A stretch of DNA of 49,612 nt from Deltaproteobacteria bacterium (GCA_003135855.1 PNBD01000008.1:18072-67683); one strand, 5' to 3'; positions 8,667 to 47,515 are shown, counted from the first letter of the stretch. Made by a program: numbers and translations. The notes: generated from the sequence alone by a model not told the origin.

Positions 8667-9683
8667 ATGAAAGCAATCGCCAAAACCAGCGCGGCTCCCG
8701 GCGCCGAAGTCATCGAAACTCCAATCCCCGAAGTCGGCGAAAGCGAACTGCTCGTTCGCGTCGGTGCCTGCGGCGTGTGCGGTTCCGATCTGCACATCGT
8801 CGATTGGGAACTTGGTGCGAACCGGATGGTCTCGCGAATTCCGTTCGTGCTCGGCCACGAGCCCGCCGGCGAGGTCGTCGAACTCGGCATCGGAGTAAAC
8901 GGCTTCAAAGTTGGCGATCGCGTCGCACTCGATCCCTTCGGTCATTGCGGACGATGCGGCCCGTGTCGCGCTGGTCGATTTCATCTTTGCGCTTCCCCGA
9001 CCACGCTCTCGGGAGCCTTCGCTGAATTTACGATCGCGCCGATCGGCAACGCCCATCTCGTTCCGCCTACGATGGATATGGAGCAGGCCGCGTTGCTCGA
9101 AATGTTCGGCACCGGGCTGCATGCGGTCGAGCAATCCTGCCTGATGCCCGGTGATAGCGCGGTTATCGAAGGCCCGGGTCCGATTGGCTTGAGCATCGCG
9201 CTGTCGGCGCGCGCGCTTGGCGTCACCTCGCTCGTGATCACAGGCCTCGCGCAGGATACCACCCGCCTCGAACTCGCTCGCACTATGGGCTTTAAAACAG
9301 TGACTACCGGCGCCCCCGATTGGATCGAGCAAGTGCGCGCCATGATGCCTGCCGACGGCGCCGACGTGGTGTTCGACGCGTCGGGCGCCATCGATTCTCC
9401 GCGCGAATTGCTGCGTCGCGGCGGCCAGTTGATCGAAGTGGGATGGCCCGCGCGTGATGTGACCTCCGCCGAATTGCGCGCGCTGTTCTTTCACGGCGTC
9501 AATATTATCAACTCGCGAGTCCGCACCCCCGAAACCTGGCGTCGCGCAATCGCGATGGTCTCGTCGGGCGCGATCGACTTGCGTCCGATGATCACCCACC
9601 GCTACGGCATCTCGCGCGGCTTGGAGGCTTTCACCTTGCTGCGTGAACGGCGCGGCGTGAAAGCATTGATTATTCCGGAATAG
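8667..9683 (+). CDS. Zinc-dependent medium-chain alcohol dehydrogenase
   Basis: 338 residues of the MDR superfamily (threonine/sorbitol dehydrogenase-like). Catalytic zinc ligands are Cys38 (GVCGSD) and His64-Glu65 (GHEPAGEV). Structural zinc ligands are Cys94, 97, 100 and 108. The NAD(P)-binding Rossmann turn is GPGPIGL near 169-175. It should oxidise a secondary alcohol or polyol reversibly in the cytoplasm; the substrate is not determined. The ribosome site before the ATG is weak. It lies 69 bp after the HTH-citrate synthase and 46 bp before an amidohydrolase, all on the plus strand, so the three may be co-transcribed. Confidence 0.88.
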   Translation: MKAIAKTSAAPGAEVIETPIPEVGESELLVRVGACGVCGSDLHIVDWELGANRMVSRIPFVLGHEPAGEVVELGIGVNGFKVGDRVALDPFGHCGRCGPCRAGRFHLCASPTTLSGAFAEFTIAPIGNAHLVPPTMDMEQAALLEMFGTGLHAVEQSCLMPGDSAVIEGPGPIGLSIALSARALGVTSLVITGLAQDTTRLELARTMGFKTVTTGAPDWIEQVRAMMPADGADVVFDASGAIDSPRELLRRGGQLIEVGWPARDVTSAELRALFFHGVNIINSRVRTPETWRRAIAMVSSGAIDLRPMITHRYGISRGLEAFTLLRERRGVKALIIPE

Positions 9684-36856: not shown

Positions 36857-38569
36857 TTATGCGCTCACGCCGTGACGCAAAACCTTGCCCGGATGCACGC
36901 CCGTGAATTGATCGTTTTCCCACGTGACCGCGCCGTTGACGATCACGTATTGATAGCCTTCGGCGCGCTGGATTCGACGCCACTCGTCACCCGGCAAATC
37001 GTGAACAATTTCGACCGGCAGTACCGCCAACTTGTCGAGATTGTAGATTACGATGTCGGCGGGAGCGCCTTCGCGCAGGAAGCCGCGATCCTTGAAGCCC
37101 GCGCAGAACGCCGGCAATCCCGACAAGCGCCAATGGATGTCCTCGAGCGAAATCCATTTCTGTTCGCGCGTAAAATTGACGATACCCTCGGTCGGGAAAC
37201 GGCCCGCCGTCAGGAATTTCGTATGCGCGCCGCCGTCGGACACGCCGAACGTCAGGTAAGGATAATCGATCAATTCCTTCATGCCCGCCGAATCGTGCGA
37301 GTTGGTGCCGGGCGCGAAGAATTCGGTCTTGAGATTCTCCGACACCGCGAGGTCGAGCATCGTGTCGACCGCATCTTTCTTCGTTTCGAGCATCGCGAGC
37401 CGTAGCGTCATGCCTTCGAGCCGCTTGTTCTCGGGACGATCGACCTGCGTGATGATGATCTCGTCAAAGTAATTGACGATCAGACTCTCGCGCGGCATCT
37501 GTGCTTTCAGCGCGGCGCGCCGACGCGGATCGCCCAGCTTCTCCGTGCGCTCTGCGATCGAACCGGTGGTGGCTTCGCGCCATGCATCCGAATCGTCGAA
37601 CAGGTTCCAGTCTTCGAACGTAAACGTTAGGCCGGCGTCGGTGGTCACGCCCTGTCCGTAAACTGGGAGCCCGCGCTCGCGGCATCGCTCGAGCCATCGC
37701 AGCGTGTTGCGATGCCGATGCGGGAAGCGATCGTTGGCGGCGACCGCTTCGAACATGATAGGACGCCCGCTGATTTCCGCGAGCTTCTCGAAATGTGCCG
37801 CATCGGCCTTGGGATCCCAGCTCGCGAGCGTCAGCTCCTGGAAGCCTTCGCCGCGATCGCCGAGCACCTTGGCCATCTCAAAGCACGTCTCGTCGTGCAT
37901 GATATCGGTATTCATCGGCGCGCCGTCGTAATCGCGCTGCACCGAACTCGGGCCATCGGGCTTCAGCCGCTGCGCCGACCATCCGCACGCGCCGGCGTCC
38001 ATCGCCTCGTTCAGGATGTGCCGCATCTTCGCGTGCTCATCGTCAGTCGGCATCCGGCCGGTCTTCGATTCGTCGATACCCATCACGTAGCCGAGCAGCG
38101 GATTCATCGGCACGTAGGGGAGCAGATTGATTCCCTTGGGGATAGTATCAAGCTTGTCGAGGAACTGCGGATAGCTTTCCCAATCGAACGGCATCGCGGC
38201 CTGCATCGAGCGCAGCGGAATCGCCTCGGTGCGTACCATCGTGAGCATCGCGCGCTCGGCCTCTTTCGGACGGACAGGAGCAAAGCCGAAGCCGCAATTT
38301 CCGATCACCACCGACGTGATTCCGTGGAATCCCGAAATCGTCAGATAGGGATCCCAGAAAATTTGCGCATCGTAATGAGTGTGCAGATCGATGAATCCCG
38401 GCGCGACGATCGAACCGCTCGCATCGACGACCCGCGCCGCTTCGTGCGGCCGGATCCGTCCAATCTTCGCAATCCTGCCGTTCTTGATCCCGATATCGCC
38501 GCGAAAACGCGGTGCGCGGGTGCCATCGATCACCATGCCGTTTTTAATGACGATATCGAATTCTGCCAT
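36857..38569 (-). CDS. N-acyl-D-amino-acid deacylase family amidohydrolase
   Basis: 570 residues from ATG 38569, which has a GGAGGAAGG site. Metal-binding His63 and His65 (DLHTHYDAQ), bridging-type Cys92 (GNCGFGFAPV) and the late Asp in SDGGAHTKF follow the D-aminoacylase pattern. The family hydrolyses N-acyl-D-amino acids or related amides in the cytoplasm. Many members annotated this way in soil bacteria have unknown substrates, so the exact reaction is open. A paralogue with the same key positions is at 45788-47515. Monocistronic, ending in a strong terminator. Confidence 0.87.
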   Translation of the reverse strand: MAEFDIVIKNGMVIDGTRAPRFRGDIGIKNGRIAKIGRIRPHEAARVVDASGSIVAPGFIDLHTHYDAQIFWDPYLTISGFHGITSVVIGNCGFGFAPVRPKEAERAMLTMVRTEAIPLRSMQAAMPFDWESYPQFLDKLDTIPKGINLLPYVPMNPLLGYVMGIDESKTGRMPTDDEHAKMRHILNEAMDAGACGWSAQRLKPDGPSSVQRDYDGAPMNTDIMHDETCFEMAKVLGDRGEGFQELTLASWDPKADAAHFEKLAEISGRPIMFEAVAANDRFPHRHRNTLRWLERCRERGLPVYGQGVTTDAGLTFTFEDWNLFDDSDAWREATTGSIAERTEKLGDPRRRAALKAQMPRESLIVNYFDEIIITQVDRPENKRLEGMTLRLAMLETKKDAVDTMLDLAVSENLKTEFFAPGTNSHDSAGMKELIDYPYLTFGVSDGGAHTKFLTAGRFPTEGIVNFTREQKWISLEDIHWRLSGLPAFCAGFKDRGFLREGAPADIVIYNLDKLAVLPVEIVHDLPGDEWRRIQRAEGYQYVIVNGAVTWENDQFTGVHPGKVLRHGVSA

Positions 38570-38831
38570 GGCCTTCCTCCGTCCCAACTCGAGCCGTTAG
38601 ATTGTCACTGGACCGCGATTAAACCGTTACCTTGCCTTACCTTGGCACCTGGCGAGTGAAAAATGCCGATGAATTGACGCTGCGTCGGTAATAGCGAAGC
38701 GGGTCATCTGCGCATCTCCGACGCTAGTAATCGAACCTTCAAAATGTCAAGCGTAAGGCGGATCGGCGGCCTGAAATGAAAGACCAGAATCACTTAATCA
38801 GTCAGCCAGGATTCTTTGGAGAATTGGTGCA

Positions 38832-39943
38832 ATGACGAAGCTTTACCGCGCGGAAGTGATCGGGTCGATGTTGCGGCCGCAGTACTTGAAAGAGGCGCGC
38901 AAGCGTTGGGAAGCGAAAGAAATTGGCACGCGCGCGTTCAAGCAAATCGAAGATCGCGCGGTGGACGAGATGATCGCACTGCAGGAGCGATGCGGCGTCG
39001 ACGTGGTCACCGACGGCGAAATGCGCCGAACGCATTTCATCGCACCGCTGACCGACGTGATTTCTGGGGTCAAGGAAATCCCCGCGTTTACTCGCGTCTG
39101 GCGCAAACCGCACGAGAAAAACGAGCAGCCCGAGGAGACCAATATCCAGGTGCAGTACGCGGTCGTCGAAAAAATCCATCGAACCCGCTCGCTCACCAAC
39201 GAAGAATTTGCTTACGCGCGCGGCCGTGCAAAAAAGCCGCTCAAGGTTACGCTGCCTAGTCCGCTGATGATGACGCTTCGATGGTCGCCGGAACATTCTC
39301 GCGACGCCTACCCCGATCCGTTCAGCTTGTTCATCGACGCCGCCGATATCGTGCGCCAGGAAGCGCGCGAGCTGGCTGCGCTCGGTTGCGAATATATCCA
39401 GCTTGATGCGCCCGAGCTCGGGATGCTCTGCGATCCGGAGCGTCGCAAGCAGGATTTTGCGGATCGCGCATGGATCCCGAGCGGCTGCTGACCGAAGGTA
39501 TCGACATCATAAATTCGGTCGCCAACGTTCCGGGCGTCAGCTTCGCGTTGCATCTCTGTCGCGGCAATAACAAGGGCTACTACGTCGGCGAGGGCGGTTA
39601 CGACGCGATCGCGAAACAGCTTTTCAAGCGCGCAGGTAATTTTTCGCGCCTGCTGCTCGAGTATGACGATTGGCGCTCCGGCTCATTCGAACCGTTGCGC
39701 GAAGTTCCGTCCGACATGGGCGTAGTGCTCGGGCTCATCTCGACCAAGCGCGCGCAACTGGAATCTGCCGATGAACTGGTTGCGCGAATCAAGGAAGCGA
39801 GCCGCTATTGTCCGCTCGAGCGAATGGCGCTTTCGACGCAATGCGGTTTCGGAACTGTCTGGGAGGGAAACCCGATCGCCGAGTCAGTGCAGGAAGGAAA
39901 GTTGAAGCTGGTGGCGAACGTCGCGCACCAAGTCTGGCACTGA
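38832..39943 (+). pseudogene. MetE-like methyltransferase, split by a frameshift
   Basis: Two overlapping frames (38832-39491, ending RAWIPSGC, and 39470-39943, starting MDPERLLTEG) together make one protein of about 370 residues of the cobalamin-independent methionine synthase II family. Part one carries GCEYIQLDAPEL; part two carries the zinc-binding HLCRGN and LSTQCGF motifs. The reading frame breaks between the codons for Arg (near 39467) and Met (39470); one missing base in GCGCATGG would explain it. Both parts are otherwise well conserved, so the break is recent or a sequencing error. Intact homologues transfer methyl groups to a thiol; the substrate here is unknown. Confidence 0.8.
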
Positions 39944-39954
39944 CAAATGTTCCA

Positions 39955-40734
39955 TCAGACGAATCTCACGTTGACGGAGCCAAGACGGTCATAGCGGGCG
40001 GTGATTGAATCGCCGGCGGCGACTTCGACTGCGCGGCACAATGCTCCCGGTATGATGATGCTGCCTGCCGTCAGCGTTTGGCCGAATTCCGCGAGCTTGT
40101 TCGCGAGCCATGCGACCGGCTCGGCAGGATGCCCGAGCACAGCCGCGCCGACACCTTCTTCGACTGCGATGCCATTTTTTTCGAGCTTCATCGCGACGCT
40201 CGCGAGGTCGTACTTCGACACTGGCGTCTTTGTCTCGCCCAACACGACGCGCGCCGACGATGCATTGTCGGCAATCGTATCGGCGAGCGTTATCTTCCAA
40301 TCGCGCAGGCGGGTGTCGATTATCTCGAGCGCCGGTGTCACGTACTCGGTCGCCGCAATTACGTTCGCGCGCGTGATGCCCGGACCGCGAAGCTCGCGCG
40401 ACAAAACAAATGCGATCTCCGGCTCGACTCGCGGCAGCATCAGGGCGCTTACGCGGCACTCGTCGCCGCTGCTCAGAACCATATCGTCGAACAGATGACC
40501 AAAATCAGGTTCGTTGACGCCGAACATTTTCTGCATCGCGATGCTAGTGAGGCCGACCTTGCGGCCGACGATTCGGCGTCCTGCGGCGACACGCCGCTCG
40601 ACGTTGATCATCTGGATGCGATACGCGTCGGCGGCCGACAGTCCGTTTTGTGCCGCGGGCGGATCGATCGCTTTACGTTCGCGCTCGGCGCTATTCAGGC
40701 GCTCCGCGATTTCGTTCAGCTTGGAATCTTCCAC
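39955..40734 (-). CDS. 2-keto-4-pentenoate hydratase (MhpD/BphH/HsaE family)
   Basis: 259 residues of the fumarylacetoacetate-hydrolase superfamily. The metal site residues are in RVEPEIAFVLSRELRG and the TPALEIIDTR segment; GRKVGLTS near 58 is typical. The enzyme hydrates 2-hydroxypenta-2,4-dienoate (or a substituted form) to 4-hydroxy-2-oxovalerate in meta-cleavage pathways. Start is GTG 40734 with a weak GGAAG site. It is the last gene of the dioxygenase operon, 16 bp after the hydrolase. The next pathway enzymes (aldolase and acylating aldehyde dehydrogenase) are not in the window. Confidence 0.88.
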   Translation of the reverse strand: MEDSKLNEIAERLNSAERERKAIDPPAAQNGLSAADAYRIQMINVERRVAAGRRIVGRKVGLTSIAMQKMFGVNEPDFGHLFDDMVLSSGDECRVSALMLPRVEPEIAFVLSRELRGPGITRANVIAATEYVTPALEIIDTRLRDWKITLADTIADNASSARVVLGETKTPVSKYDLASVAMKLEKNGIAVEEGVGAAVLGHPAEPVAWLANKLAEFGQTLTAGSIIIPGALCRAVEVAAGDSITARYDRLGSVNVRFV

Positions 40735-40750
40735 TTAGAATTCTTCCATT

Positions 40751-41590
40751 TCATTCGCCAGCCGACAGGAAATCGATCACCAGCCGATTGAACTCGGGCG
40801 CCTTTTCCCACTGCGCCCAATGACCACATTTGCCGAAAATGTGCAGGCGCACGTCGGGCATTTGATTCAGCATGATGAACGCGCCGTCGAGCGTGACCGT
40901 GCGATCGTCGCGTCCCCAGATGATCAGCGTTTTGTGGCGGACGTTGGCGAGCTTCTGCCATAGCGGTTCGATCGCAACTGGGCGGCTGCGCGACAACATC
41001 GGATTGGCAAGCAGATCGGGCTGGGTGCTGGCGGCGAATCGTTCCTTGATCAGTTCGTCGGTCAACTGCGAGCCGTCGTACACCATCACGTTGAGAAATG
41101 CGCGCAGCTTTTCCAGCGAAGGTCCGGGCGGCTCGTAGTAGCCGAGCAGATGCTTGATTCCTTCGGTCGGCTGCGGCGTGAAAATCGGCAAGCCGCCCGC
41201 CGCACCCATTAGCACTAGGCGTTCGGCGCGATCGGGATTGTCCAGCGCGAATTGCAGTGTGGTGCCGCCGCCCAGCGAATTGCCGACGAAACTCGCGCGC
41301 GGAATATCCAGCGCGTCCATCAGGTCGCGGATCGCTTTCGAGAGAAACGCGAACAAGCCGCCCTCGATCTTCGGCTTGTCACTCTGCGCGAAGCCCGGCA
41401 GGTCGGGCAGGATCACGCGGAAGCGTTCCGCGAAGGCATCGACGTTGCGGCGATAGTTGCTCCATCCGCCGGCGCCCGGGCCGCCGCCGTGAATCATGAT
41501 CAGTGCTGGACCGCGCCCGGCCTCGTGATAGTGGAGCTTCAGCGGACCTGCATGAATGAACTTGCTTGTGGCTTCCTGTGTGAGCGGCAT
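40751..41590 (-). CDS. Meta-cleavage-product hydrolase (BphD/HsaD/MhpC-like)
   Basis: 279 residues. The family motif HGGGPGAGGWSNYRRN (34-49) and the triad Ser105 (GNSLGGG), Asp229 (WGRDDRTV) and His257 (CGHWAQWE) are complete. Such C-C hydrolases split 2-hydroxy-6-oxo-dienoates into an acid and 2-hydroxypentadienoate. GGAGGTCGCT precedes ATG 41590. It lies between the dihydrodiol dehydrogenase and the hydratase, as in biphenyl and steroid degradation clusters. Which ring substrate it serves cannot be told. Confidence 0.92.
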   Translation of the reverse strand: MPLTQEATSKFIHAGPLKLHYHEAGRGPALIMIHGGGPGAGGWSNYRRNVDAFAERFRVILPDLPGFAQSDKPKIEGGLFAFLSKAIRDLMDALDIPRASFVGNSLGGGTTLQFALDNPDRAERLVLMGAAGGLPIFTPQPTEGIKHLLGYYEPPGPSLEKLRAFLNVMVYDGSQLTDELIKERFAASTQPDLLANPMLSRSRPVAIEPLWQKLANVRHKTLIIWGRDDRTVTLDGAFIMLNQMPDVRLHIFGKCGHWAQWEKAPEFNRLVIDFLSAGE

Positions 41591-41635
41591 AGCGACCTCC
41601 GAGTTGTTATCGATCAGCGATAGATTTTATTTGCG

Positions 41636-42451
41636 TTACAAATTGCGGCCGCCAGCCGCGTTATCACCGAATCCGCGAATGCCCATTCCGCCTTCGCAGA
41701 TGATCACGCCGCCGGTCGCGGTCGAGGAGTTTTCGGATGACGCCAGCAGGACGTACGAGCCGGTGTAGTCGCGTGGCTCGGGAAGTTTGCCTAGCGGCAG
41801 CCCACGCTCGATCATCTCCTTGAGCGGCACCGAGGCGATCGATCGTTCAGCCATCTGGAGCGAGCGCGGCCCGCGGAGGTCGGTGGGAATCGCTCCGGGC
41901 GCGACGCCATTGACGCGAATCTTGGGCGCGAGTTCATAAGCGAGTTGGCGAATCAATCCGACCACGGCGTGCTTCGACGCGGTATATAAAGGACCGCCGC
42001 CGCACGGATAGAAGCCGGCGTTCGAGACAGTATAGATGATGGAGCCGCGAGTCTTGGCTAGCTCGCGATAGCTGGCCTTGGCGCCGAGCAGATAGCCCTT
42101 CACGTTGACCCCGAACAATTCGTCGAATGCCTCGCCGATTCGATCACTGGGCAAGTCAACCAGCGAGGTGGAGAAATCCCAGATGCCTGCGTTGCCGACA
42201 AAACAATCGAGACGGCCGAAACGCTTCACCGTATCGGCGACAGCGCGCTCGTTATCGCCGAGAATCGTCACGTCGCCGATGATCGCGGCGGCATCCTTGC
42301 CGAGCTGCGTGGCCAACTCCTCGCTGCGTTCGCGCGAGCGATCGAGAAAGGCAACTCGTGCGCCTTCCTCGATGAACCGCTGAACTATCGCCCGTCCAAG
42401 TCCCGACGCACCGCCGGTCACCAGCGCTATCTTGCCTTCGAGCCATCCCAT
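41636..42451 (-). CDS. cis-Dihydrodiol dehydrogenase (BphB-like SDR)
   Basis: 271 residues. TGGASGLG at about 12-19, GNAGIWDF near 86-93, and the catalytic Ser143, Tyr156 and Lys160 match the biphenyl/naphthalene cis-dihydrodiol dehydrogenases almost position by position. It should oxidise the dioxygenase product to a catechol with NAD+. It lies 8 bp after the ferredoxin gene and 45 bp before the hydrolase. The product catechol would then need an extradiol dioxygenase, which is absent here. Confidence 0.92.
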   Translation of the reverse strand: MGWLEGKIALVTGGASGLGRAIVQRFIEEGARVAFLDRSRERSEELATQLGKDAAAIIGDVTILGDNERAVADTVKRFGRLDCFVGNAGIWDFSTSLVDLPSDRIGEAFDELFGVNVKGYLLGAKASYRELAKTRGSIIYTVSNAGFYPCGGGPLYTASKHAVVGLIRQLAYELAPKIRVNGVAPGAIPTDLRGPRSLQMAERSIASVPLKEMIERGLPLGKLPEPRDYTGSYVLLASSENSSTATGGVIICEGGMGIRGFGDNAAGGRNL

Positions 42452-42459
42452 TTCGGCTG

Positions 42460-42765
42460 CTACTCCATCTCGACCAGCACATCACCGGCTTCAACCTTTA
42501 ATGGATAGGTTCGAAGCGGGACGGTGGCCGGCAGTGAAAGGACCCTTCCAGTGCGCAGGCAGAAGCGCGCCTCGTGCAGTGCGCATACTATCTCGTCGCC
42601 CTCAACGTAGCCCTCTGACAGCGAGAATTTCGCGTGCGTACACGTATCGTCGGTAGCAAAGAACTCTTCACCCACGCGGAAAATCGCGATCGGATTCAGT
42701 CCTTTGATTTTGAGGCCGGACTGATCGGCGAGGTCGTCAACCCGACAGACTTTCTTCCATTGCAT
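42460..42765 (-). CDS. Rieske-type ferredoxin of the dioxygenase system
   Basis: 101 residues, the normal length of BphF/HcaC-like ferredoxins. The 2Fe-2S cluster ligands are Cys42, His44, Cys61 and His64 in CTHAKFSLSEGYVEG and CALHEARF. It carries electrons from an NADH-ferredoxin reductase to the oxygenase. The reductase gene is not in the window. It lies 16 bp after the beta subunit gene and 8 bp before the dihydrodiol dehydrogenase. Confidence 0.95.
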   Translation of the reverse strand: MQWKKVCRVDDLADQSGLKIKGLNPIAIFRVGEEFFATDDTCTHAKFSLSEGYVEGDEIVCALHEARFCLRTGRVLSLPATVPLRTYPLKVEAGDVLVEME

Positions 42766-42781
42766 CGAGGCGCTCTTATCC

Positions 42782-43345
42782 TTAGAAAAAGAAACTCAGG
42801 TTGCGTGCCTGCAGTATGGATTGATCGAGAATGATCGTGCGGCGCGCGATCTGAAAGCCGGCTGCGTTCTGAGCGCGGCGCAACACGTCATGACGCATCC
42901 CAACGAAGATCTCGACCTCGCGTTCGAGTCGCGAACGATAGAGCAGGTAGTAGCAATCGACCTCGTACTCATCGTTTGCGAGAGGCCGTAACACGACGTT
43001 GCTGACCATGTGGCGCGTGCGCGAGGGCGGATCCTCCGCCCACGCCATCCCGGTGTTGAGGCGACGGATACGCGTGGCGATCGACGCCTTGTCTTCGTCA
43101 AAGAACGCTGCTTCGTCAGCGGCAGAGAACTCCTTGTCAGCCTCGCGACGAAGCCGGTTGTAGCGCGTCGGCATGAAGTAGTGAAGGTCGCCGGCTAGCA
43201 GCTCGTACCATTCCTCGTAACGTCGCTCATCGAGCACCCGCGACTCATGATAGAGGAACTGCTCGATCTCCTGCTGGAGGTCCGGCGTAACGTGCTCAAG
43301 GCTGGCGCTTTGGGATTTTGACTGAGTGGCTACCGCGGCACTCAT
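42782..43345 (-). CDS. Ring-hydroxylating dioxygenase beta (small) subunit
   Basis: 187 residues from ATG 43345, which has GGAGGT upstream and overlaps the alpha-subunit stop (ATGA). Family features are EIEQFLYHESRVLDERRYEEW, LLAGDLHYFMPTR and the C-terminal LDQSILQARNLSFFF. It is a structural subunit of an alpha3beta3 oxygenase of the biphenyl/phenylpropionate type. The frame extends 11 codons upstream into the alpha gene, which is unlikely to be used. Confidence 0.93.
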   Translation of the reverse strand: MSAAVATQSKSQSASLEHVTPDLQQEIEQFLYHESRVLDERRYEEWYELLAGDLHYFMPTRYNRLRREADKEFSAADEAAFFDEDKASIATRIRRLNTGMAWAEDPPSRTRHMVSNVVLRPLANDEYEVDCYYLLYRSRLEREVEIFVGMRHDVLRRAQNAAGFQIARRTIILDQSILQARNLSFFF

Positions 43346-44661
43346 GCGCTTACCTCCGTGGAGATCATCTCCGCCCACCGGCGATAGAAGCCGCGCGCCG
43401 CTTCTTCGCCATAGACGTTGTTGATTGTTCCAGGGAACTTAGGATGGTCGGTTTGCGCGTGACCTAGTCCCATTCCTAAGTTGAGCTTGGAACGCCGGGC
43501 CTTGTAGCCGCGCAGAACTTTTTGGATCTCCAGCCAGTTCTCACCGTCGTCCTGCTCGAAGATGCCGCCGGCGCTGAAGGTGCGAAGCACACCCAGGCGG
43601 ACTGCCTCCTTGACCTCGGGTGGTGAGTCGCGCTCGACCAGCGCCCAAGCCCATACTTCGATTTCACCGGGTCCGCGCGGATGCCACACACGGAGCGTCT
43701 GAATTCCCGGCAGGAATGAGAAGGTCGGGAACACGGTCATGTGCCCGCCGAAGATCTCCGAGCCGCGCGGTTCGCCGAGACGCTTGACGGCTTCGACGCG
43801 CCCAGGCCCTTCGAACCATGCTGAAGCCACGGGTCCGTTGATATTCTGACCGGTGCCCATGGTCTCGGTGAAGAAGCCGGTGCCATGACCGCCACTCGAG
43901 CTGAACTGTTTTCCGATCATAGGCAGGCGGCCCAGCGCTGGATCGATTCCTTCTGGTAGTTGCGCAATCAGCGCTGACAGATGACTGAAGTCGGCGTGAT
44001 ACATATCCGAACAGAACTGCTCGGCGGCAAATTTCCAGTTACACTTCAGCACCCATCGATGCATTCCGCCGATAACCTCGGTACCGCCCGCGCTCCGATC
44101 GAAGTAACCGTCCATGTACCACAGCATGTCGCCCAGGTAGTCGCGGAATGACGCAGCGTCTTCATGCCAATTGCCGAACACAAGGCCGTGGTAAGTCTCG
44201 ACTCGCGGCACCGGCTGCGGATTCCACTGACTCTTGTCGACTTCACAGCGATAGCCGTCTTCCTCATGAGGAATTGCGATCAGCTTGCCGCCGATGTCGT
44301 AGCTCCAGCCGTGATAAGAGCAGGTGAAAGCGCGTGCGTTGCCGCCGTCGGCGCGGCAGATGCGCATCCCACGATGCCGGCATTGGTTGAGAAAGGCGCG
44401 AATCGAGCCGTCCTTCTGCCTGACTACCAACACGGGATCCTCGGCCATATAAGTGGCGAAGAAATCGCCCGGCTTCTTTAGCTGACTCTCGTGACACAGG
44501 TAGAGCCATGAGCGATCGAACACGCGCTCGAGTTCCAGCTCATAGATAGCCTGATCCTGGTAGATTCGCGGATCGAGCCGGCCGGCCTTCTCGTCGACCA
44601 ACCCGCGCAGCTCCTCATGAGTCAGTTGATGTTTGCCATTGGTTGTCGAAGCAGTTTTCAT
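43342..44661 (-). CDS. Ring-hydroxylating dioxygenase alpha (large) subunit
   Basis: 439 residues from ATG 44661 (GGAGGGC upstream). The Rieske centre uses Cys94, His96, Cys114 and His117 (CRHRGMRIC and CSYHGWSYD). The catalytic iron is held by His222 and His227 (MYHADFSHLS) and an Asp in FEQDDGENW (371 or 372). It adds dioxygen across an aromatic ring bond to give a cis-dihydrodiol. The natural substrate is not determined; the closest pattern is the biphenyl/phenylpropionate/naphthalene class. First gene of a six-gene operon, with a promoter and palindrome just upstream. Confidence 0.95.
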   Translation of the reverse strand: MKTASTTNGKHQLTHEELRGLVDEKAGRLDPRIYQDQAIYELELERVFDRSWLYLCHESQLKKPGDFFATYMAEDPVLVVRQKDGSIRAFLNQCRHRGMRICRADGGNARAFTCSYHGWSYDIGGKLIAIPHEEDGYRCEVDKSQWNPQPVPRVETYHGLVFGNWHEDAASFRDYLGDMLWYMDGYFDRSAGGTEVIGGMHRWVLKCNWKFAAEQFCSDMYHADFSHLSALIAQLPEGIDPALGRLPMIGKQFSSSGGHGTGFFTETMGTGQNINGPVASAWFEGPGRVEAVKRLGEPRGSEIFGGHMTVFPTFSFLPGIQTLRVWHPRGPGEIEVWAWALVERDSPPEVKEAVRLGVLRTFSAGGIFEQDDGENWLEIQKVLRGYKARRSKLNLGMGLGHAQTDHPKFPGTINNVYGEEAARGFYRRWAEMISTEVSA

Positions 44662-45618: not shown

Positions 45619-45787
45619 GCGGCTTGAGCGAGAACTTTGGGGGCAGGCGACAAGGCGCGATTCGGTTGGCATTTTGCGCGATTTGTATAAGTATCATCGC
45701 AGCATCGTATTAGACGGCGCGGCCACGCGCCTCGACATAACCGACTGATTGCGAAAAGTCCTTACCGCTCGAGGAGGGAACTCAAAA

Positions 45788-47515
45788 ATGGCTGAATACG
45801 ACATTCAAATTAAAGGCGGAACGATCGTCGACGGTACGCGCGTGCCGCGTTTTCGCGGCGACGTCTGGATCAAGGACGGGAAGATCGCGCAGATTGGCGG
45901 ACGCGCGGCCAGCTTCGCGAAAAAAGTTATCGACGCAGACGGCCTGATCGTGGCGCCCGGATTCGTCGATCTGCATACGCATTACGATGCGCAGATTCGC
46001 TGGGATCCCTGGTGCACGATTTCCGGATGGCACGGCGTCACCTCGGTCGTGCTCGGCAACTGCGGCTTCGGCTTCGCGCCGGTCAAGCCGGACTTTCGCG
46101 ATCGCTCGATGCTGACCATGACGCGCACGGAAGCGATTCCCTACGAATCGATGAAAATCGGTATGCATTGGGATTGGGAAACGATTCCGCAGTACCTCGA
46201 TTCACTCGACCGCGCGCCCAAGGGCGTGAATTGCATCCAGTACATGCCGACCGCGTCGTTGATGACCTACGTGATGGGTCTCGATGCGGCGAAGACCCGC
46301 GCCGCAACTGAGGCGGAGCGCACCGAGATGCGCCGCCTCCTGAATGAAGGCATGGACGCCGGACTATGCGGCTTCTCGATTCAGCGGCTCGGCAAGCATT
46401 CGGCGCAGGCGGATTTCGACGGCTCGCCGATGGTCACCGACACGATGTGCGACGAGGACATCCTGAATCTCGCGCGTGTGCTGCGCGCTCGCGACGAAGG
46501 CTTCATCGAAATCACGCAAGCGACCGGGCATATCAAAGCCGATTTGGCATTCGTCGAGAAGCTCGCGGCAGAGGCGAATCGGCCGATTCTGTTCCAGGCG
46601 ATCACGGCCAGCACGCGCAATCCCGACATCCATCGGAAAAGCCTGAACTGGCTGCATAACGCACGCGCGAAGGGACTGCCGATCTTCGGCCAGGGCGGAA
46701 CCGTGCGCAGCGGCTTTGCGTTTACGCTCGAGCACTGGAACCTCTACGACATGTCGAGCGCATGGCGCGACATGACAACCGGCACCAAGGAAGAAAAAAT
46801 CGCGAAGATGAACGATCCCGCAATTCGCGAGGCGGTCAAGAGCGATCGCGCGATGCATGCGATCGACACCAATGCCGCGGGAATCGGCGGACGGCCCGCG
46901 AAACTGATCGTTTCATGGGTCGAGAATAAGCCGGAGCTCGAAAAATACGTCGGCAAGTCGCTCGGGCAGATCGCGTCGGAAGAGGGCAAGCATCTCGCAG
47001 ACGTGATGATCGATTTGTCTCTGGCGACCGATCTCAAGGCCGAGTTCCTGCAGCCCCAGCCCGAATTCAACGCCGAGTTCAACGCCGAGATTATCAACGG
47101 CTCGATGTACACCTTTCCGGGCGTTTCGGACGGCGGCGCGCATACCAAGTTCTTCACCGGCGGTTCGTTCACCACCGACTTTCTGCGCTGGATGGTGCGC
47201 GACGAGCAGCGCGTATCGCTCGAAGAGGCGCACTATCGATTGTCGGCACTGCCGGCGCATGCGGCGGGATTCCGCGATCGCGGCATCCTGCGCGAAGGCG
47301 CGTGGGCCGATGTGGTGGTGTACGACCTGAAGAATCTCGGAATCGAGCCGGAGTGGGTGGGCGAAGTGACGCACGATCTGCCGGGTGGCGAATGGCGTCG
47401 GGTGCAGCGTGCGAAAGGCTATCGATCGATCATCGTGAACGGCGTCGAGACGTTTGCGGAGGATAAGTGCACGGACACGACGCCGGGCAAGCTGCTGCGT
47501 CACGGCCATGCGTGA
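45788..47515 (+). CDS. N-acyl-D-amino-acid deacylase family amidohydrolase (paralogue 2)
   Basis: 575 residues from ATG 45788, preceded by GAGGAGGGA. His63, His65 (DLHTHYDAQ), Cys92 (GNCGFGFAPV) and the Asp in SDGGAHTKF sit exactly as in the protein encoded at 36857-38569, so the two are paralogues, although the middle regions differ clearly. The substrate is unknown; the two copies may handle different amides. A 169-bp non-coding gap with no clear promoter precedes it, and a strong terminator at 47585-47621 follows. Confidence 0.87.
   Translation: MAEYDIQIKGGTIVDGTRVPRFRGDVWIKDGKIAQIGGRAASFAKKVIDADGLIVAPGFVDLHTHYDAQIRWDPWCTISGWHGVTSVVLGNCGFGFAPVKPDFRDRSMLTMTRTEAIPYESMKIGMHWDWETIPQYLDSLDRAPKGVNCIQYMPTASLMTYVMGLDAAKTRAATEAERTEMRRLLNEGMDAGLCGFSIQRLGKHSAQADFDGSPMVTDTMCDEDILNLARVLRARDEGFIEITQATGHIKADLAFVEKLAAEANRPILFQAITASTRNPDIHRKSLNWLHNARAKGLPIFGQGGTVRSGFAFTLEHWNLYDMSSAWRDMTTGTKEEKIAKMNDPAIREAVKSDRAMHAIDTNAAGIGGRPAKLIVSWVENKPELEKYVGKSLGQIASEEGKHLADVMIDLSLATDLKAEFLQPQPEFNAEFNAEIINGSMYTFPGVSDGGAHTKFFTGGSFTTDFLRWMVRDEQRVSLEEAHYRLSALPAHAAGFRDRGILREGAWADVVVYDLKNLGIEPEWVGEVTHDLPGGEWRRVQRAKGYRSIIVNGVETFAEDKCTDTTPGKLLRHGHA

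Follow-up and report, generated by a model that had tools for sequence, protein, structure and literature searches.

How can an operon encode a ring-hydroxylating dioxygenase, together with enzymes that act on the products of ring cleavage, and yet lack the enzyme that opens the ring? The question is raised by a stretch of 49,612 nucleotides (C3:18072-67683; hereafter, the window) from a Deltaproteobacteria bacterium (GCA_003135855.1), the 4.5 Mb genome of which (G000) is a draft, 90.4% complete with 3.8% contamination. On the minus strand of the window, at 39955-44661, lies a compact six-gene operon with intergenic gaps of 8-45 bp; in order, the genes encode the dioxygenase alpha and beta subunits, a Rieske ferredoxin, a dihydrodiol dehydrogenase of the short-chain dehydrogenase/reductase (SDR) type, a meta-cleavage-product hydrolase and a hydratase. 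A preliminary description of the window had listed these six genes, and had claimed that it holds no extradiol dioxygenase, ferredoxin reductase, aldolase or aldehyde dehydrogenase. Both observations are borne out: all six genes lie where they were described and, in profile scans, carry the expected Pfam or NCBIfam domains, whereas neither tblastn with proteins of the missing types nor Pfam scans of the 30 other open reading frames (ORFs) in the window found an extradiol, ferredoxin reductase, acylating acetaldehyde dehydrogenase (AcDH) or aldolase of this pathway. An AcDH match in the window, far from the operon, spans 94 residues at 32% identity (9171-9440; E 2e-5). Nor was a conventional extradiol gene found just outside: the same tblastn searches recovered none of the four enzymes from the 18 kb of contig to the left of the window (L024), and on the right the contig terminates at the window's edge (C3:67683), leaving nothing to read; the operon is transcribed away from this end.

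We consider it probable that the operon belongs to a functional biphenyl/hca-type meta-cleavage pathway that is split between two related operons, each reduced in a manner complementary to the other. In this scheme, the alpha-beta dioxygenase, fed by the Rieske ferredoxin, would convert a (probably substituted) benzene ring to the cis-dihydrodiol, from which the SDR would generate a catechol; a BphC-type extradiol encoded elsewhere, on contig C86 (the gene at 181 kb, possibly that at 170 kb), would then open the ring, the operon hydrolase would split the meta-cleavage product, and the hydratase would hydrate the dienoate. One operon would have lost its extradiol gene and, later, those for AcDH and aldolase; the other would have kept the extradiol and, in a congener, a ferredoxin also.

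Gene loss among relatives of the operon

Three genomes were compared with G000: G020, of the same genus, and two further relatives, G029 and G033, the alpha subunits of which fall in the same subclade. In G033, the alpha subunit of which is 78% identical to that of the window, genes for alpha, beta, ferredoxin, SDR and extradiol stand in one operon. The order in G029 is alpha-beta-ferredoxin-SDR-(extradiol remnant)-hydrolase-hydratase-AcDH-aldolase, the remnant occupying a gap of ~220 bp after the SDR gene that encodes MSAIERLGYLGFGVKDLDAWK..., corresponding to the N-terminal ~30 residues of the extradiol, before a stop and frame breaks intervene. An apparent ferredoxin-SDR fusion in this genome was discounted as merely an extended ORF, the ferredoxin being a separate gene in another frame; additionally, a second, distant dioxygenase alpha/beta pair (L065:707-2515; alpha ~30% identical) follows the aldolase gene. 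The corresponding position in the window is the 45-bp gap between the SDR and hydrolase genes (41591-41635, minus strand), which, given the N-terminal remnant there in G029 and the intact extradiol gene right after the SDR gene in G033, is the putative ancestral extradiol site. Moreover, the full or nearly full order is seen in alphaproteobacterial metagenome-assembled genomes (MAGs; L106, L109 and L130) and in Parvibaculum (L144 and L159). As reconstructed from these relatives, the ancestral order is alpha-beta-ferredoxin-SDR-extradiol-hydrolase-hydratase-AcDH-aldolase; the ring-cleavage gene appears to have been lost from the operon, with a close homologue surviving at a second locus.

The congener G020 (alpha 91% identical) has the order alpha-beta-SDR-hydrolase-hydratase, the ferredoxin gene being missing from the operon. 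It has no AcDH gene in the operon and no intact aldolase gene, of which only fragments persist: 109 residues at 89% identity, and 28 bp directly behind the hydratase gene. Past this remnant, 41 bp match the 3'-terminal part of a MetE-like gene. The window has such a gene too (38832-39943, plus strand, convergent with the hydratase gene; PF01717), its 3' end directly abutting the hydratase gene; since the match lies past the aldolase remnant in G020, the AcDH and aldolase genes have probably been deleted in the window too, and the junction would mark the apparent deletion point. The MetE-like gene is itself split over overlapping frames (38832-39491 and 39470-39943), through either a frameshift or an assembly error.

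Comparison of G000 with G020 gives ratios of nonsynonymous to synonymous substitution rates (dN/dS) of 0.042 for alpha, 0.104 for beta, 0.098 for the SDR, 0.066 for the hydrolase and 0.103 for the hydratase, values that indicate strong purifying selection on the retained genes. Taken with the lack of an in-operon extradiol, AcDH and intact aldolase in both genomes, such selection argues for a working pathway that is completed in trans.

Extradiol genes on contig C86

Two BphC-type extradiols are encoded in G000, both on contig C86, at 170 kb (C86:170215-171111) and 181 kb (C86:181368-182249). The biphenyl-2,3-diol dioxygenase model (cut-off 366.45) is passed by the 170 kb protein, at 367.7, and, at 369.8, by the orthologue of the 181 kb protein in G020. 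The closest relative of the 181 kb protein is the extradiol of the G033 operon (70% identity), and in a large tree the two are sisters with a Shimodaira-Hasegawa-like approximate likelihood ratio test (SH-aLRT) value of 96. Independent support for this relationship comes from the neighbouring gene: an SDR at C86:182336, directly downstream of the 181 kb extradiol gene, is 76% identical to an SDR encoded just upstream of the G033 operon, and this shared neighbour suggests that the 181 kb locus is a collapsed second operon. The ferredoxin genes are distributed reciprocally between the two loci: in G020, the extradiol locus holds ferredoxin and extradiol genes and the main operon has no ferredoxin gene, whereas in G000 the ferredoxin gene is in the operon and there is none at the extradiol locus. 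In both genomes, then, a single close ferredoxin of the operon type survives; the next paralogue is <40% identical.

Sequence comparison establishes, in our view, which genes are present, which remnants persist in relatives, that the genome has extradiol genes, that the retained genes are under purifying selection, and that no BphI aldolase, acylating AcDH or glutathione reductase (GR)-type reductase was found in the draft genome; that a C86 extradiol serves this operon we infer. Several observations weigh against the proposed split. In a smaller, more careful tree, the sister relation between the 181 kb and G033 extradiols receives support of only 40/36, and we therefore put that relation forward with reserve. 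In G000, the reading frame of the 181 kb gene is broken by an N and by a TAA in frame (L026); the N stands between two copies of AATCGG, which suggests an artefact of contig joining. In the smaller tree, too, the ferredoxin from the G020 extradiol locus has no clear sister among the operon ferredoxins; neither a reductase nor an aldolase is linked to the operon; and the assembly is a draft, with the completeness and contamination given above.

The 170 kb gene is the other conceivable partner. It reads intact in G000 and passes the biphenyl-2,3-diol dioxygenase model, and in another genome (G012; L070) its orthologue, at 78% identity, lies ~0.9 kb upstream of the gene for an alpha homologue at 71%. 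However, it has fumarylacetoacetate (FAA) hydrolase and HpaB neighbours of its own, which are conserved in G020 and G033, and it falls in a different clade from the operon-borne extradiols, making it unlikely that this is the extradiol on which the operon depends. The surrounding cluster (C86:166013-173738; L025) places boxB, boxC and a BoxR-like regulator beside the extradiol, FAA hydrolase and HpaB-type hydroxylase genes, the HpaB frame being cut short near an assembly N. Both boxB (826 bits) and boxC (905 bits) score above cut-off, and the pair would fit a substrate that releases benzoate.

The successive losses across G029, G020 and G000 could instead mean that the operon is a decaying relic, which, with extradiol, AcDH and aldolase gone, supports no growth and transforms substrates only fortuitously. 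Against this stand the dN/dS values of 0.04-0.10 and the intact catalytic residues of the alpha subunit; since dN/dS averages over the whole time since the two genomes split, a very recent loss of function would be compatible with them, but we consider a relic decidedly improbable.

The dioxygenase and its electron supply

The alpha subunit is encoded at 43342-44661 (minus strand; PF00848 and PF00355), the start at 44661 being an internal ATG within the ORF 44712-43342. It is >50% identical to solved enzymes, the best relatives being benzene/toluene and biphenyl dioxygenases (PDB codes: 3en1, 1uli and 5aeu). The Rieske ligands Cys111, His113, Cys131 and His134, in a CXH...CXXH arrangement, and Asp236, His239, His244 and Asp389, which provide the 2-His-1-Asp iron site and the bridging aspartate, are all conserved. 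In a tree of 83 alpha sequences, the window, G020, G029 and G033 form a four-member subclade of their own (SH-aLRT 100), nested in a set that holds LB400 BphA, RHA1 BphA1 and HcaE (SH-aLRT 94-98); the nearest sequences outside it are from Immundisolibacteraceae and another gammaproteobacterium. The iron-ligand loop, DMYHADFSH, has HX4H spacing, as have HcaE and many uncharacterised relatives, whereas the characterised bph/tod core clade has HX5H (DMYHAGTTTH in LB400 and DMYHAGTTSH in RHA1). Nor does the protein reach the cut-off of the HcaE equivalog model (546.5 against 830 bits). Phylogeny, therefore, assigns the alpha subunit to a known class at the level of the toluene/biphenyl/hca family, within which it belongs to a subclade that has no characterised member in this tree; for this reason, the substrate cannot be read from family placement. 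Genes resembling bphA1 and todC1 have been reported for Binatales (PMC9535955), a group to which this genome could conceivably belong.

The remaining products match their families to differing degrees. The beta subunit (42782-43345) scores 140.8 bits with PF00866 and 194.6 with NF007479 (cut-off 145); the Rieske [2Fe-2S] ferredoxin (42460-42765; PF00355), of the BphA3/HcaC type, 113.6 with NF007422 (cut-off 113); and the BphB/HcaB-type cis-dihydrodiol dehydrogenase (41636-42451) 386 with NF004849 (cut-off 330). For the BphD/HsaD-type hydrolase (40751-41590), the best solved relative is BphD (PDB code: 2og1), and the BphD model gives 289 bits (cut-off 462). The product of 39955-40734, of the 2-hydroxypentadienoate hydratase/oxo-acid hydratase-decarboxylase family, scores below cut-off with the DmpE (276 bits), HpaH (264) and DmpH (257) models. 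All five genes are on the minus strand.

The operon is flanked by genes for two Amidohydro_3 paralogues that are 51% identical, at 36857-38587 (minus strand) and 45749-47515 (plus strand); in G020, too, the latter (96% identical there) lies next to alpha in divergent orientation. Between it and alpha lies a gene for a carbonic-anhydrase-domain protein (PF00484; 44617-45618, plus strand), which is not so placed in G020.

The preliminary description saw in this operon a candidate for an undescribed aromatic or steroid-like route, a suggestion that is not sustained, as alpha lies inside the toluene/biphenyl/hca family and the steroid models fall below their cut-offs. A truly different pathway, in which the hydrolase and hydratase would act on a non-extradiol intermediate, or on a steroid- or diterpenoid-like substrate, is the least credible reading: it can call on HsaD as the top-scoring model for the hydrolase (345 bits), on the uncharacterised HX4H subclade and on the paralogous amidohydrolases at either side, but HsaD remains below its cut-off of 400, as does HsaC (274 against 450, scored with the orthologue from G020 of the 181 kb extradiol), phmmer places the hydrolase about as close to BphD (270.7 bits) as to HsaD (261.7), and the extradiol belongs to the same operon in relatives.

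That the pathway must be completed elsewhere, as was also proposed, stands for ring cleavage, through the C86 genes and the extradiol or its remnant in the operons of relatives. For the other steps, a genome-wide search of the draft found neither a BphA4/HcaD-type (GR-type) ferredoxin reductase nor a BphI-type aldolase or acylating AcDH. The GR-type reductase domain PF14759 was found neither in G000 nor in 40 of 41 family genomes, but the Escherichia coli control was also silent, even though K-12 has hcaD, so the model is not decisive by itself; tblastn with BphA4, HcaD and the p52 reductase against the 17 Pyr_redox_2 regions of G000 gave only partial matches of 24-35%, while recovering the RHA1 reductase, and we have discarded these proteins as hidden BphA4 candidates. 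The sole match of the ferredoxin-NADP reductase (FNR) type in G000 (C56:8619-9739) resembles BenC and is encoded next to a plant-type ferredoxin, and this pair may supply the electrons. For the last step, an HpaI-type aldolase (C86:72771-73451; 389 bits against a cut-off of 369) is no more than a candidate: HpaI enzymes take short aldehydes, and that of E. coli makes 4-hydroxy-2-oxopentanoate (PMC8560999). It was rejected as a member of an aromatic cluster, its neighbours at 72.8 kb being asparagine synthase-like and resistance-nodulation-division (RND) efflux genes.

Tentatively, these strands may be drawn together: it is possible that an aromatic compound yet to be recognised, perhaps released by the flanking amidohydrolases, is the substrate of a dioxygenase of the HX4H subclade, which in this bacterial family would take its electrons from a non-GR reductase, and that two operons, each partly decayed, together furnish the meta-pathway.

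Comparison with known systems

With respect to the Type IV three-component systems of Kweon et al. (PMC2358900), the [2Fe-2S] ferredoxin is present and the GR-type reductase was not found in the draft genome; with respect to a complete bph-type meta-cleavage operon, the extradiol lies outside, on C86, and the BphI aldolase and acylating AcDH were not found in G000. The bph operon of Paraburkholderia xenovorans LB400 (bphA1-A2-A3-A4-B-C-K-H-J-I-D) draws on the same enzyme families for the alpha and beta subunits, the ferredoxin, the dehydrogenase, the hydrolase and the hydratase, but the window operon is without bphA4, bphC, bphJ and bphI, and its alpha subunit, 57% identical, has HX4H in place of HX5H and falls outside the bph/tod clade. 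In relation to hcaEFCBD of E. coli K-12, the beta subunit, ferredoxin and dehydrogenase of the window pass hca-type models, and HcaE likewise has HX4H; however, HcaE lies in a different clade, and the window operon adds hydrolase and hydratase genes and has no hcaD. Closer in design are the uncharacterised operons of the alphaproteobacterial MAGs and Parvibaculum (L106, L109, L130 and L144), which run alpha-beta-ferredoxin-(reductase)-SDR-extradiol-hydrolase-hydratase-AcDH-aldolase, or nearly so, with HX4H; unlike that of the window, they are complete or nearly complete, and their alpha subunits are 54-56% identical to it. In Novosphingobium aromaticivorans F199, ring-hydroxylating oxygenases are scattered over several clusters and share electron-transfer parts (PMC2358900); its pathway genes are likewise dispersed, but F199 keeps the GR-type reductase BphA4, for which no counterpart was found in the draft genome analysed here.

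Relatives can thus explain a 'missing' key enzyme in the operon of a poorly known lineage, and operon content alone is poor ground for inferring new routes or pathway gaps. Set beside these systems, the predicted route is ordinary in kind, a dismembered version of a well-known gene set for opening aromatic rings.

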